Shown here one piece after another: positions 43,383-52,028 of a stretch of 64,000 bases of DNA. Within the stretch, counting starts at the first letter, position 1, and the number at the start of each line of letters is the position of its first letter. The translations under genes and the position numbers were made by a program. This stretch comes from an uncultured bacterium (GTDB lineage Bacteria > Hydrogenedentota > Hydrogenedentia > Hydrogenedentales > CAILVY01): assembly GCA_937951485.1 (NCBI GenBank), contig CALEDJ010000045.1:142310-206309 (forward strand). The letters are read 5' to 3'. The notes beneath the pieces were generated by a model, which made no database searches, was not told where the DNA came from, and saw only the letters and a program-made list of their open reading frames with translations.

Positions 43383-44852
43383 CTAGGAATCCTGCAAGTC
43401 TTTGGTCAGCCCCTGCATCTCGCGGTTGAATTCCGCCGTGACCTGATGGAAGACCTTGCTGGTGATGCGGGGGATGGTGTCCTGTACATCGGCATCGAGC
43501 GTGCTTTCACAGGTTTCGACGAGCAGCCGGTTGAAGAGTTTCGCGGCATAGCGGGGCATGCGCGTCTTGCTCAATTCCGCGACAATTTCCGCCCGCGAGA
43601 TTTCGGGGGCAAAGAGGTCTTGCAGGTCAAAATCCCGCCCATCCTGGTCCGCTTTGCACACGGTGGCGCGCTCGATCAGCATTTCATAGAGGTGTTCGCC
43701 GGACCACTCCAGATGGATCATGTTCGCCTTGTCGGGCCGCGCCAGCAATATCAATTCCGGGTCGCCCTTGCGGATCGGCTCATAGAGTTGCTCGGGCAGC
43801 AGCATCTTGAAGTGGATGCCGGTGGTCTGGAGCATTTTGTTGTTCCACATCGGGCGGATGAACTCCGACATGTGCGCGTAACTGCCCGCAAGCATGGTCG
43901 GTTCGTCCACCTTGTCAATCACGACGGCCACGCGCGCATAGCCCGCCTGCTTGCACACGGCCACGGCCTTGCCCAGCAGGTCGTAACGCGCGGACTCGCT
44001 CAGCGGGTCCGTGCCCTTCATCGCCAGCGGCTGGCTCTTGAGATACTGTGAAGGAATCAGACGGAGCGCCCAGTCCAAATCGGGCAGATCGCGGTCAATC
44101 ACCTGCACCGCGGCATGCAGCCGCCGCGCCAGCGCGCGGGTGAGCAGTTTCCGGTAAATCCAATAGCCGCCGAGCGTGCCGATGCACATCAGCGCCGTCC
44201 CCAGTTTGTCGCCGAAGCGCGCCGCGCCCGAAAATAGCCGGTGACGCAGAAGCGTCAGGGTGCGCCGGTATTCATGCGACCGGCTTGGCAGAAACAGCGC
44301 CGCCAGGAACAGCGCATCGTATTTGCTGTGCTCATTCCACGCGCGGGGTCTGCATTCTTTGGAGGACAGCATTTCCTCGAAGTGTCGCACGGTTTCCGCG
44401 AGGATGGCGTCAATGTGATGGGTAAGTTTCCAGTGTTCTTTGAGATCAGGGTGCGGCGCGTCTTTCCCGCGCATCTTCGACCACATGCCCCGCGTATGCC
44501 GCAGTATCTCTGCCATGCGCCGCTCCCATGCAGAGAGATAGGCGTTGAAATCGTCATAATTGATGAGCAGCGTTTTGCCGTCGCGTGTTGCCTGATCGCT
44601 TGCGTTGAACGCCTTCAGCGCGCTGTCCAGCGCGAGTCGCATGGCGGTTTTGCCGCTGCCTTTGAGGCCGAAGACCACTGAAGTCTGGTTTCCCGGCGGC
44701 GACCCGTAAAACTTCGGCCACTGCGGATGGCCGAAATGAAAGTCCCGCTTTTCCAGCAGCCGCAACAAGACCTCGTCGCCCTGCGCTTCTTCCGCGTTGG
44801 CGAAGGGATTCATCGTCAACCCGTGTTTCTCCAGAAACCGTTCAATTCTCAT
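43383..44852 (-). CDS. P-loop ATPase of unknown role
   Basis: The 489-residue protein starts at ATG 44850-44852 with agaggaag upstream; a further 77 in-frame codons look unlike protein. It opens MRIERFLEKHGLTMNPFAN and has Walker A FGLKGSGKTAM and a probable Walker B strand RVAVVIDKVDEP. A long middle section (about 205-300) is helical, with hydrophobic stretches (YDALFLAALFL; ALMCIGTLGGYWIYRKLLTRALAR) that may be membrane-associated. The C-terminus holds LEWSGEHLYEMLIERATV, seen in KAP/AAA-type STAND ATPases. I do not recognise a specific function. It lies just downstream of the PAS histidine kinase, in the same direction. Confidence 0.7.
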   Translation of the reverse strand: MRIERFLEKHGLTMNPFANAEEAQGDEVLLRLLEKRDFHFGHPQWPKFYGSPPGNQTSVVFGLKGSGKTAMRLALDSALKAFNASDQATRDGKTLLINYDDFNAYLSAWERRMAEILRHTRGMWSKMRGKDAPHPDLKEHWKLTHHIDAILAETVRHFEEMLSSKECRPRAWNEHSKYDALFLAALFLPSRSHEYRRTLTLLRHRLFSGAARFGDKLGTALMCIGTLGGYWIYRKLLTRALARRLHAAVQVIDRDLPDLDWALRLIPSQYLKSQPLAMKGTDPLSESARYDLLGKAVAVCKQAGYARVAVVIDKVDEPTMLAGSYAHMSEFIRPMWNNKMLQTTGIHFKMLLPEQLYEPIRKGDPELILLARPDKANMIHLEWSGEHLYEMLIERATVCKADQDGRDFDLQDLFAPEISRAEIVAELSKTRMPRYAAKLFNRLLVETCESTLDADVQDTIPRITSKVFHQVTAEFNREMQGLTKDLQDS

Positions 44853-45101: not shown

Positions 45102-46874
45102 TCAGTGAGGGTCCGATGACGGCTGTGTTTTCGGGATGCGCACAAGCAGACAGGTATTGGGACAGGATGAATCCACCTCGATCGCGCCGTGGTGCGCTTC
45201 GACAATGTCCCGGGAAATACTCAATCCCAAACCGATCCCGCGCCCTTCTTTTTTCGTGGTGAAGAACGGCGTGAAGACCAAATTGCAGTGGTCGGGGGGA
45301 ATGCCTGAACCGCTATCCATAACGGCAAATACAACGGCGTCGGCTTCCGCTTTCGCCGTCAGGTTTACCCACTTCTCGGGAAGATTTTCCACGGCGTCGT
45401 AGGCGTTGTTGAGCAGATTCAGGAGCACCTGCGACAATTGCGAAGGCCGGCATTGCAGTTCGGCGTCGCAGATTTCGCCGAGATTAAGCGCAATGTTCCC
45501 CTTCTTGAAACGGTAATGGCACAATTCCACGGCATCGTCCACTATGCGCCGTACAGACGCGCTTCGGAAAGGGTCCGCCGCAGCCTCCCGGGAAATGCTC
45601 TGCAAGGCGCGCACGATATCGTCCATGCGATCCACATTGCGCACAATGCTTGCCGCGATACGGGGGTATTGCTGTTCGAGTGGTTCGTGAAGGGAAAAAT
45701 ACTCATGAAGATGCTGGGCGCCCGCGGAAATGACCGCCAGCGGATTCTTGATTTCGTGCGCGATGCCGCCCGCCATCGCCCCCAGCGTGGCCAGTCGCGC
45801 CGCATTCTCCATCTTGAAGCGCTGCTCCATGATCAGGGTTTCATTGCGGACCCGCTCGGTGATGTCCTCGGCCAGGCACAGCAGGTGTTTCTGATCACCC
45901 GCGTGAACACGCGCCAGATGATACTGGAACCAGACATTCTTGCCAAATCCCGTCACCAGATGCACTGCGCCGGACGAAGGTTCGCCCGTGGAAAGAACCG
46001 CCTCCGCCATCTGCAGTATGCCGAATTCACGCCAGGACGCAATCTCGCGAAAATTCTGCCGGAGAAGGTCTTCCTGCGTCGCTCCCAAGGATGCCGCTAT
46101 TGTCGCGTTGGCCACCATGCATTCGCCGGAATCTTTGTACACCAGAATGCCCACCGGCGACGCCGCAATCAAGGTCTGATTGAAATTCAGCGCATCGATC
46201 AAATGCGCCTCGGCCCGTTGGCGCTCTTCTATCTCCTCCTGCAACTGCCGGTTGGACAACGTCAATGCTTTTGTGCGCTCCTCCACGCGCTGCTCCAATT
46301 CCGCGTTCAACAGGCGTAATTCCTGCTGCGCCTGCTCGCGTTCTTTCATTTCGTGCGTCAGCCGCTCATGCTTGCGTTTTGTTTTAAGATTGGATTGGTG
46401 CACCTCAAAAAGCGACAGGTAAAACCCCATGAACAGCAACGCAAACCCCCCGACAAAAAGGCCCTCTTCGAAAACGATGCCGGTGGGGTCCAAGCGCGCC
46501 AGTATGCGGGCGGGCAGAAGAGTTTCATAGTCTTTTATAAGACTTATTAACTGTGAGAATACAAGAAACAAGGCGCCAATAGAAACGGTGCGTCGAATCC
46601 ACGGCGTGATACGCAGCCGCCGTATCACATAAACGGATACGCCCGCCCACGCGCAAATGGCCAGAAGCGTCAGCGTGCCGGTTACCGCATAGGGCGCCGC
46701 ATAATACTGATAGAGGAAGCGCCCCAGGAGTTCGAATCCGGCGGCAAACACCACGCCGATTCCCAGGATTCCGGCCAAGTGCCCCGCGCGAACAGGATAG
46801 TCCTCCTGTCGGCGTGTTCCGGCATCCCTATCATCGGGCGTCACAGCAGGGTCACGGAATAGATTCGTCGCCAT
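45102..46874 (-). CDS. Membrane PAS-domain sensor histidine kinase
   Basis: The 590-residue protein starts at ATG 46872-46874 (gggg upstream). Residues about 30-160 contain four or five hydrophobic helices forming a membrane sensor of unrecognised type. A coiled-coil (RKHERLTHEMKEREQAQQEL to RQRAEAH) leads into a PAS domain (FNQTLIAASPVGILVYKDSGECMVAN). The kinase core has H-box GAMAGGIAHEIKNPLAVIS, N-box LLNLLNNAYDAVEN, G1 DSGSGIPPDHCNLVFTPFFTTK and G2 RGIGLGLSISRDIV. It autophosphorylates on His and passes phosphate to a response regulator, but none is encoded next to it. The 18-bp gap to the P-loop ATPase suggests co-transcription unless the hairpin region between has a terminator, which I did not see. 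Confidence 0.93.
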   Translation of the reverse strand: MATNLFRDPAVTPDDRDAGTRRQEDYPVRAGHLAGILGIGVVFAAGFELLGRFLYQYYAAPYAVTGTLTLLAICAWAGVSVYVIRRLRITPWIRRTVSIGALFLVFSQLISLIKDYETLLPARILARLDPTGIVFEEGLFVGGFALLFMGFYLSLFEVHQSNLKTKRKHERLTHEMKEREQAQQELRLLNAELEQRVEERTKALTLSNRQLQEEIEERQRAEAHLIDALNFNQTLIAASPVGILVYKDSGECMVANATIAASLGATQEDLLRQNFREIASWREFGILQMAEAVLSTGEPSSGAVHLVTGFGKNVWFQYHLARVHAGDQKHLLCLAEDITERVRNETLIMEQRFKMENAARLATLGAMAGGIAHEIKNPLAVISAGAQHLHEYFSLHEPLEQQYPRIAASIVRNVDRMDDIVRALQSISREAAADPFRSASVRRIVDDAVELCHYRFKKGNIALNLGEICDAELQCRPSQLSQVLLNLLNNAYDAVENLPEKWVNLTAKAEADAVVFAVMDSGSGIPPDHCNLVFTPFFTTKKEGRGIGLGLSISRDIVEAHHGAIEVDSSCPNTCLLVRIPKTQPSSDPH

Positions 46875-47335
46875 TTTAACCCCATACACCCACGCCACGG
46901 GCAACCATGCAGAAATACAAATGCGCTTGCGCCAAATGCCTTTCAGAGAGGTTCATGTCTGTTCCCCAGAATAAACCCGACCGGCGTGCGCCTTCCGCGC
47001 CTCGCAACATGCTCCCGGCGTAACGCGCCTTACCGGATAGAGTTGGCAACTCGTTCCTTCCGTGCTCATTCTAGCGCGTCGCATGGTTGAGGTCAATAGG
47101 CAGGACAAGAAAGTATGACCTGCGGCGTTGGCATTGAACGCGCCTTTTTCATGGCGGCGCGTCATGCCGCCCGGTGGAAAGCGGTGGCAAGGCACCGCTG
47201 TCCAAAAAAAACATTGACTTTGCATCCGTTTCCTCATGCTGAAATGTTACGCACATTTTAAGTGACGGGTTTCGGCGACATGTGCTAGGATCAGTCAGGC
47301 GATTGGAAACCGCGGTACAAGGAGACCTCCATATC
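46875..47335. other. Divergent intergenic region, no gene seen
   Basis: This 461-bp stretch separates the minus-strand histidine kinase from the plus-strand nitrilase-family gene. It should hold both promoters. Frames present are short and poor. I noticed no hairpin, repeat or RNA gene. A weak promoter-like pair (gtgacg, 18 bp, taggat) lies near 47262-47291. Confidence 0.4.
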
Positions 47336-49856: not shown

Positions 49857-51872
49857 TTATCCCGCCGGGGCAAGCGCCGCGTGGCGCGGCAGAGAGATGA
49901 TGAAGGTGGCGCCGGTCGGTCCCATGCGGGAATCCGTGTTCGATTCGACGCGGATGTCGCCGGAATGCATTTTCACAATGCCGTAAGTGATCGCGAGACC
50001 GAGTCCGGTGCCTTTGCCGTAGGGTTTGGTGGTGAAGAACGGCTCGAAAATTTTATCGGCGTGTTCCTTGGGAATGCCCGGCCCGGTGTCGCGCACGCGC
50101 AATTCCACGCGATTGTTGTTGCCCACCGTCTGAATGTCCAGGCGGCCGCCGTTGGGCATGGCGGCGCATGCATTGCCGATCAGGTTACCCAGGGCCTGCA
50201 TGATCTGGTCCTCGTCGAGGTCCGCCACCGGATCGTCCACATTGTGTTCCACCTTCACGGTGATATTATCGGGAATCACGACGGCCTTCAGGCTGCGGTC
50301 TATCAGTTCCCGCAGGTCCGTTCCCCTGCGCGACACCTTGTTCTGACGCGCAAAATGGAGCAGGCCCGACACGATTTTTTTGCATCGGTCCGCCTGTTCC
50401 TTGATCATTTTCAAATCTTCCATCAGTTCGGGGTTGTTCTCCTGCTCCTGCTCCAGAATGTGCGCGTACATCAGGACCACGCCCAGCGGGTTATTCAATT
50501 CATGGGCGATGCCGGCGGCGAGTTGCCCCATGCTCGCCAGTTTCTCCGCCTGCATCAGGGTTTCCTGGGTCTTTGTCAGGGCTTCGTTGGATATGGCGAG
50601 GTTCTCAATGGTTTCCCGGAGCCGTTCGATGGTATGGGGAAGGCACATCTCGCTTTCCGCCAGTCCCTTGTAGATTGCGATACCGTGTTCCCGACAGGTC
50701 TCATAGCCGCACGCCCCGCAGTTCAGTTCATCTTCAGGCACATACTTGCCCATCCGTTCCAGGATGGCGGCCAGTTCGCGCGGCGACGGCTCGGCCACGC
50801 GCTGGTCATCCGGTTGGTAGGCGCGGCCAAGGTCAAGGTCCGCGAACTCGGCCATCCACCGCCGCCAACGGGGATAGTCCAGACGTTCCAGGCGCCGGCG
50901 CACGAACTGGCTGACGCGTGTGCGGCGACGAAAGAGCGGTTCGCAACTCGTTGTGCCCGGCCCCATGATGCACCCTTCGCAGGCAAGCACTTCGAGCAGG
51001 CGCAGGCCGCTGTGATCGGTTTGAAACGCCTTGATGGCGTCCACAAAGCCGCTGCGCCCCCCCGCCACCACCACGTCGCATGCGGCGAGGTCTTCGGAAA
51101 TTTCCGCCGCCTGAAGCAACCCGTGGCTAATCGGGAAAAGCGCCCCCGGTCCCGCGTGCGGCGGGTCAAAGTCGCTCGGCTCCACGCAATGCCGCGACAA
51201 ATCGCGCTCGCCCGCCATCTGCCGCAACTCCACGAAAGTCAGCACCGCGTCCACTTCATCGGCGAGCGTGGGGCTTATCGCTTCATTCTTCTTCGCGATG
51301 CATGGCCCCACGAAAACCGTTTTCAGATGCTGCCCGTGAAGGCGCCGCAAGGCGCGCGCCGTCGCCACCATCGGCGACACCACCGGCGCCAGAAACCGGG
51401 TCAATTCGGGAAAATACCGCTCTACATACGCCACAATGGCGGGGCAGGTTGTTGCGATATGACTCCGTCCGTCATCCTGCTGCATCAGGCGGCGGTAACG
51501 GTCTGCCACCAGGTCCGCTCCAAAGGCCACCTCGACCACATAATCGAAGCCGATCGCGCGGAGAATGCCCGTCAGGTCACGGTAGTCCCAGTCCGTGAAC
51601 TCCGCCGGAAAACTCGGCGCGACCATCGCCGCCACCTTGGCATTGCCCGCCAGCAGCCGCCGCACATCCACCGTGGAATCATAGACCTGTTTGGCGTGCT
51701 GTCCGCAGACCCGCACGCAGTTGCCGCAGCCGATGCAGCGCCCGCTGATCACCTCGGCCTGCCCGTCCACGATGCGAATCGCCTTGGCCGGGCATTCCCG
51801 CACGCAGGTGTAGCACACCCGGCACCGTTCCCGGATCGTGCTGACCAAAGGTATTCTGGACGAATTCTTCAT
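49857..51872 (-). CDS. [FeFe]-hydrogenase-like domain fused to histidine kinase
   Basis: The 671-residue protein has four parts. Residues 17-56 are a two-cluster ferredoxin (CRVCYTCVREC and CIGCGNCVRVC). About 80-345 are a hydrogenase large-subunit domain with three motifs: TTCPAIVAYV, FVGPCIAKKNEA and VLACEGCIMGPG. An Fe-S domain follows with LNCGACGYETCREHGIAIYKG. A kinase core has MGQLAAGIAHELNNPLGV (H-box), ALGNLIGNACAAMPNGG and GIPKEHADKIFEPFFTTKPYGKGTGLGL. Compared with catalytic enzymes, the first motif (usually TSCCP) has a single Cys, and the third has C-x2-C where C-x3-C is usual, so an H-cluster may be altered or absent. It looks like a redox or H2 sensor. No cognate response regulator is adjacent. 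Confidence 0.88.
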   Translation of the reverse strand: MKNSSRIPLVSTIRERCRVCYTCVRECPAKAIRIVDGQAEVISGRCIGCGNCVRVCGQHAKQVYDSTVDVRRLLAGNAKVAAMVAPSFPAEFTDWDYRDLTGILRAIGFDYVVEVAFGADLVADRYRRLMQQDDGRSHIATTCPAIVAYVERYFPELTRFLAPVVSPMVATARALRRLHGQHLKTVFVGPCIAKKNEAISPTLADEVDAVLTFVELRQMAGERDLSRHCVEPSDFDPPHAGPGALFPISHGLLQAAEISEDLAACDVVVAGGRSGFVDAIKAFQTDHSGLRLLEVLACEGCIMGPGTTSCEPLFRRRTRVSQFVRRRLERLDYPRWRRWMAEFADLDLGRAYQPDDQRVAEPSPRELAAILERMGKYVPEDELNCGACGYETCREHGIAIYKGLAESEMCLPHTIERLRETIENLAISNEALTKTQETLMQAEKLASMGQLAAGIAHELNNPLGVVLMYAHILEQEQENNPELMEDLKMIKEQADRCKKIVSGLLHFARQNKVSRRGTDLRELIDRSLKAVVIPDNITVKVEHNVDDPVADLDEDQIMQALGNLIGNACAAMPNGGRLDIQTVGNNNRVELRVRDTGPGIPKEHADKIFEPFFTTKPYGKGTGLGLAITYGIVKMHSGDIRVESNTDSRMGPTGATFIISLPRHAALAPAG

Positions 51873-51944: not shown

Positions 51945-52028
51945 CGCACTGCGCCTTCCGCACTCCGCATTCCGCATTCCGCATTCCGCACTGCGCACTG
52001 CGCACTGCGCATTCCGCACTCCGCATGG
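51945..52028. repeat. Heptanucleotide tandem repeat (12 units)
   Basis: Twelve consecutive 7-bp units of the form CGC-A-(C/T)-T-(G/C), with variants CGCCTTC and CGCATGG, run without interruption. Three adjacent CGCATTC and three adjacent CGCACTG units are identical runs. The array lies between the divergent histidine kinase (start 51872) and the aminotransferase (start 52144). Slippage could change promoter spacing, but no promoter has been located. Confidence 0.9.

Follow-up and report, generated by a model that had tools for sequence, protein, structure and literature searches.

The window analysed here, a stretch of 64,000 nucleotides from a Hydrogenedentota MAG (4.55 Mb, 94% complete; hereafter the host), carries an intact gene in which an [FeFe]-hydrogenase-like module is fused to a histidine kinase. 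We consider, with a probability of about 70%, that its product is a soluble one-chain H2- or redox-sensing histidine kinase with an H-cluster matured by HydEFG, most likely acting in the cytoplasm. The protein falls in a group of bacterial sensors that is widespread and has been described before: HydDB defines a kinase-linked group C1 (PMC5037454), and PMC11406978 presents BfuT (sub-type V), a kinase-domain group C3 protein encoded beside bfuABC in Hydrogenedentota, so that proteins of this kind are already published. The kinase type is filed as C3 in PMC11406978 and as kinase-linked C1 in HydDB.

The reading frame lies on the minus strand, and its coordinates, 51872 to 49857, are exactly those of the first-pass annotation (Table 1). 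Its description of a 671-residue multi-domain chain is borne out by a Pfam profile search, which found five domains in order, each exceeding its own curated cut-off: a 2×[4Fe-4S] ferredoxin (Fer4_10, E 2e-8), an [FeFe]-hydrogenase H-domain (Fe_hyd_lg_C, full profile, E 1.6e-44), a Cx2Cx4Cx16C Fe-S domain (FeS, PF04060, E 3.4e-7), HisKA (E 8e-16) and HATPase_c (E 8e-25). The ferredoxin and kinase parts are thus as clear as had been claimed. HisKA with its phospho-histidine and HATPase_c, both features of two-component sensor histidine kinases, make up the C-terminus, and Pfam detected no PAS domain in the protein. The start codon matches the N-termini of the paralogues, and an AGAGGA stretch lies 5' of it. 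Its divergence from the nearest relative amounts to 0.20, 0.14 and 0.56 at the first, second and third codon positions, and the branch (0.202, versus 0.297-0.304 in operonic orthologues) shows no acceleration; the gene is thus under purifying selection. A chance open reading frame or an annotation artefact is excluded by the 671 codons, the five ordered domains and the codon-position divergence; the plus strand of the same stretch yields no stop-free known protein.

Table 1. Features of the sensor gene, in window positions
Feature	Residues	Position	Strand	Basis
Complete gene, 671-aa [FeFe]-hydrogenase-like sensor histidine kinase		49857..51872	-	stop codon 49857-49859
N-terminal two-[4Fe-4S] ferredoxin domain	13-60	51693..51836	-	Fer4_10
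H-domain, Fe_hyd_lg_C	79-305	50958..51638	-	Pfam and AlphaFold model
L1 motif ATTCP	140-144	51441..51455	-	CpI alignment
L2 motif GPCIAKKNE	189-197	51282..51308	-	CpI alignment
L3 motif EVLACEGCIMGPG	294-306	50955..50993	-	CpI alignment
C-terminal Fe-S domain, Cx2Cx4Cx16C	383-412	50637..50726	-	PF04060
HisKA dimerisation/phosphoacceptor domain	448-510	50343..50531	-	Pfam
Phospho-His H457	457	50502-50504	-	within HisKA
HATPase_c kinase catalytic domain	553-663	49884..50216	-	Pfam

Upstream of the sensor gene, in the intergenic region that separates it from a divergent aminotransferase gene, a 14-bp tandem repeat (CGCACTCCGCATTC, 5.9 copies) occupies 51945-52026. No structured RNA was found between window positions 44000 and 56000. 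A second, unrelated sensor histidine kinase is encoded at 45102-46904 on the minus strand, with no adjacent response regulator detected.

Ligands of the H-cluster were assigned by alignment with C. pasteurianum CpI, and their conservation was followed over 110 kinase-fused sequences. The first-pass annotation had listed three differences from working hydrogenases, all of which are in place (ATTCP, GPCIAKKNE and LACEGC), and had proposed an altered or empty H-cluster site; it called for an alignment with group A-D [FeFe] hydrogenases, and named a complete ligand set as the result that would speak against an empty site. None of the four H-cluster cysteines is missing. C143 of ATTCP is ligand C300, so that of the usual TSCCP only the first cysteine, the proton-relay C299, is lost, with T142 in its place. 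In the second motif C191 is ligand C355, K194 and E197 correspond to K358 and E361, and G189 replaces M353. Within the third, C298 and C301 of LACEGC (residues 296-301) are ligands C499 and C503, with one fewer intervening residue (CxGC). The four cysteines are invariant in 110/110 relatives together with Lys194 and Glu197, as are the eight cysteines of the ferredoxin domain (17, 20, 23, 27, 46, 49, 52 and 56) and the four of the C-terminal Fe-S domain (385, 388, 393 and 410), that is, all 16 cluster cysteines. An empty or degenerate site is not supported in view of this invariance, and we reject that reading.

Position 142 is Thr, Ser, Ala, Pro or Asn in 109/110 sequences and Cys in one, and position 189 is Gly in all 110. 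At the level of sequence, loss of C299 and Gly at 353 are ordinary for known sensory hydrogenases, only 17% of which have Cys at position 299 and about 51% Gly at position 353 (PMC10055695). Two of the three motif differences are thus standard for sensory enzymes that carry functional H-clusters, TmHydS and TamHydS among them (PMC8163306, PMC10055695), and the CxGC spacing alone is peculiar. The lost C299, the small residue in place of M353 (T142, G189) and the C-terminal Cx2Cx4Cx16C motif are traits of sensory groups C and D.

The classical L3/P3 signature with CxxxC is absent from the window protein and from 110/110 kinase-fused sequences, all of which have CxGC. Catalytic HydA proteins of the same phylum read CPGGC, PAS-type sensors of the phylum CSQGC, CAQGC, CEGGC or CAGGC, and the sensors of R. 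albus, Monoglobus and Acetoanaerobium keep CxxxC. As the kinase-fused proteins form one clade (102/102, support 0.998, FastTree) with every PAS-type protein outside, and as CxGC occurs in all of them, the shortened loop is a clade-defining change and not the decay of a single copy. The whole branch would bind its metal site through a ligand loop one residue shorter than in any other hydrogenase of the comparison. We found no report of a CxxC variant in sensory hydrogenases in the open-access literature.

Two other proteins may be recorded here. In the host, P0009 (L021:8254-9900) combines HATPase_c, a ferredoxin, a degenerate H-domain and a Cys-rich domain; the PCxxK motif is missing, ACEQGC is retained, and the protein resembles the 'group C1' proteins with scarcely detectable H-cluster motifs in PMC11406978. 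A different hydrogenase-kinase design is found in the sister-genus genome G001 (L141:3108-6566), where a hybrid kinase of 1153 aa contains a divergent H-domain (SPCVAKKRE, CLNCEMGC) and ends in a receiver domain.

An AlphaFold2 model of residues 1-426, built on an alignment of 49 sequences, has a mean pLDDT of 92.1 and a pTM of 0.91. Foldseek and VIA-align matched it to CbA5H, CpI and other [FeFe] hydrogenases, the best CpI and CbA5H chains giving Z 38-41 and an rmsd of about 2.7-3.0 A over about 350 residues; for CpI by itself, Z is 38-40 and the rmsd about 2.7 A. By homology and by predicted fold, the protein is a member of the [FeFe]-hydrogenase H-domain superfamily; the modelled fold is no proof of a particular cofactor. 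A85, P86, S166, P167 and M168, which align with the CpI pocket residues A230, P231, S323, P324 and Q325, are invariant in the 49-sequence alignment.

How does the protein compare with characterized sensors? In the plasmid collection, its nearest named hydrogenase is WP_013483411.1 of Ruminococcus albus 7, on pRUMAL01 (34.6% identity over 94%, E 8e-62), which from its rex-adhE-SpoIIE neighbours we take to be RaHydS. This RaHydS-type sensor shares the 2x[4Fe-4S] ferredoxin, the H-domain with GPC and the Cx2Cx4Cx16C motif, but its C-terminus is PAS-like, a separate SpoIIE phosphatase takes the place of the kinase fusion, and the ligand pair reads CNGSC (CxxxC), not CxGC. TmHydS (Thermotoga maritima, group C, M2f; PMC10055695) likewise has C299 replaced (by Ala), Gly for M353 and a C-terminal Fe-S cluster; it differs by its PAS domain, the absence of a kinase and Ser for M497, which is Leu in the window protein. 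TamHydS (Thermoanaerobacter mathranii, group D, M2e; PMC8163306) shares the loss of C299, Cx2Cx4Cx16C and Leu for M497, whereas it has no output domain and Ser, not Gly, for M353. The C-terminal PAS domain of group C M2f (PAS-type, TmHydS/RaHydS) is absent from the window protein, and Gly at 353 in 110/110 sequences and the fused kinase set it apart from group D M2e, which has Ser or Thr for M353 and lacks an output domain. BfuT (PMC11406978) is from the same phylum, likewise unites an [FeFe]-hydrogenase and a histidine kinase domain in one protein and has a comparable setting, since relatives of the window protein and the host paralogue P0004 also adjoin group A hydCBA. The window copy differs in being an orphan, away from bfuABC/hydABC. 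Neither the CxGC spacing, nor the cross-phylum context of REC and maturase genes, nor genomes with a sensor alone are mentioned in the accessible part of that paper, and we found none of the three, the last being sensor-only genomes with hydEFG, in the open-access literature. Loci L053 and L106 come from the genome illustrated in the same paper.

One scan of 84,980 species returned 490 relatives, the best 80 of which come from Hydrogenedentota, Planctomycetota, Acidobacteria, Neomarinimicrobiota, Spirochaetae, Latescibacteria, Armatimonadetes, KSB1, Lentisphaerae and others. HydA lies directly upstream of the sensor in 42/70 relatives with DNA, and REC or REC-HK directly downstream in 66/72. 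Of the 57 loci that span at least 10 kb, 49 contain HydA, 55 REC and 31 maturases, with rex-hydC-hydB-hydA-sensor-REC-REC/HK-hydE-hydG-aspA-hydF as the recurring order. The role of sensor kinase, which the first-pass annotation had put forward, is supported by this operon context, by the domain order and by the missing proton-relay cysteine.

The maturases bear on the nature of the cofactor. In G116, a genome of the spirochaete class, the one Fe_hyd_lg_C protein is a kinase-fused CxGC sensor, encoded between hydG-hydE and hydF (L195:5395-11169) inside a 575-kb contig, and HydG, HydE and HydF all exceed the NCBIfam cut-offs. G068 (HGW-Spirochaetae-5) has two kinase-fused sensors and no other Fe_hyd_lg_C protein; the first adjoins a HoxEFUYH-like [NiFe] cluster and, at the edge of the contig, a HydG fragment, and the contig of the second also encodes HydE and a HydF-like protein that narrowly misses the cut-off. 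Within the spirochaete class, HydF is found in 0/27 genomes without Fe_hyd_lg_C versus 2/4 sensor-only genomes (Fisher p 0.013); it was not found in the sensor-only genomes G110 and G111. Maturase genes next to the sole Fe_hyd_lg_C proteins of G116 and G068 suggest that HydE, HydF and HydG probably mature the sensor; a HydA could be hidden by the incompleteness of the two genomes. In the Hydrogenedentota, neither HydF nor HydG was detectable in G039 and G040 (96% complete, L149; L024/L026), where sensors are present and, in G039, HydA lies beside one of them. Either the maturase genes were left unbinned or another maturation route exists there.

Nar1/NARF relatives of hydrogenases, which have a role in Fe-S assembly, hold a [4Fe-4S] cluster without the diiron subcluster. 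The conserved cysteines of the window protein could likewise hold a cubane only, the kinase then reading the ferredoxin or redox state and not H2. CxGC is a common [4Fe-4S] spacing and departs from the CxxxC of all compared hydrogenases with a known H-cluster, which counts against our proposal; moreover, C299 and M353 are both lost, HydF escapes detection in some sensor-bearing genomes, and H-cluster motifs are hardly found in the Hydrogenedentota group C1, a HATPase-domain type (PMC11406978). However, the maturase genes adjoining the sole Fe_hyd_lg_C proteins of G116 and G068, and the invariance (49/49) of the residues at the diiron pocket of CpI (A85, P86, S166, P167, K194, E197), make this explanation unlikely.

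The host encodes seven Fe_hyd_lg_C proteins, among them three group A HydA (P0005, P0007, P0008) and three kinase-fused sensors (the window copy, P0003 and P0004), with P0009 as the seventh, and its HydE, HydG and HydF are all over the cut-offs, HydE by TIGR03956. P0004 comes after rex-hydC-hydB-hydA and is itself followed by REC, REC-HK and REC genes. A REC-HK lies directly downstream of P0003, which diverges from a HoxEFU/HoxH-like [NiFe] hydrogenase cluster; after this cluster come HydG, AspA, HydF and HydE. Thus both paralogues, as well as the 66 of 72 informative relatives, have REC proteins alongside, and the window copy, flanked by queF and a DegT-type aminotransferase gene (assigned by eye), is the sole orphan of the three. 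The first-pass annotation was right that it lacks an adjacent response regulator: tblastn of three REC proteins over the whole window gave kinase-domain matches only. A search of about 0.5 Mb of the 4.5-Mb genome for a cognate REC returned only those of the paralogue clusters and weak matches. Beside the phospho-His, all three paralogues have almost the same DHp residues, so that they may share REC partners, and the REC proteins of the other two are perhaps the partners of the orphan.

As to its origin, the window protein clusters with operonic sensors from two sister-genus genomes, G001 (74% identity) and G002 (73%), where the orthologues adjoin HydA. The nearest proteins found to the HydA, HydB and HydC of the host are also those of G001 (81, 74 and 81%), whereas the host operon carries P0004, which together with its REC genes is nearest to another family's. 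We infer that the operon exchanged its regulatory part for another, while the ancestral sensor survives elsewhere.

Such a history, with P0004, a sensor of another clade, now in the hydCBA operon and no REC neighbour left beside the window copy, would also fit a redundant or decaying orphan that lost operon and partner and ceased to signal. We hold this to be improbable, as the reading frame is intact, every motif is kept, the branch is shorter than those of the operonic orthologues and codon differences are concentrated at third positions. That the protein is a working catalytic hydrogenase with an incidental kinase fusion, for which the full ligand set, the hydrogenase fold and the slow turnover by TmHydS and TamHydS (PMC8163306) may be quoted, is highly improbable given a proton-relay cysteine missing in 109/110 sequences, three dedicated group A HydA in the host, the HisKA/HATPase fusion and the linkage to REC genes.

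In the H2- or redox-sensing kinase that we favour, the H-domain would hold an H-cluster that the cell's own HydEFG mature and that C143, C191, C298 and C301 bind through the CxGC ligand pair, and turnover would be throttled because the proton-relay cysteine is gone. The input would be H2 binding or the redox state of the H-cluster, coupled to the ferredoxin clusters and to the Cx2Cx4Cx16C domain, which would abut the kinase helix; the signal would alter autophosphorylation at H457, and the phosphate would pass to REC or REC-HK proteins like those in the operons of relatives and paralogues, tuning the expression of [FeFe] and [NiFe] hydrogenases. The diiron subcluster, H2 as the signal, the phosphotransfer, and the targets and direction of regulation are what we infer. 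The signalling path is uncertain, since in a 2026 study the C-terminal cluster of TamHydS did not respond to H2 (PMC13104023). No biochemical study of any member of the kinase-fused clade was found in the open-access literature.

For the clade as a whole, we would give even odds that its members hold a true H-cluster in the CxGC loop and pass an H2 signal to their own kinase, and that in some spirochaetes the sensor is the only client of HydEFG, the pathway being kept for sensing alongside [NiFe] hydrogenases. If this is true, genomes with hydEFG and a sensor only would offer nature's clearest example of an H-cluster built to signal and not to catalyse. The invariant CxGC raises the question of whether a shorter ligand loop can hold the H-cluster, and with what effect on its redox tuning. 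H2 sensing by group C hydrogenases is still called 'putative' (PMC8924675), in part because proteins of the PAS type lack an output domain. In the window protein, sensor and kinase reside in one soluble chain, so that H2-dependent autophosphorylation can be assayed directly, and an old guess on how bacteria sense H2 becomes directly testable.
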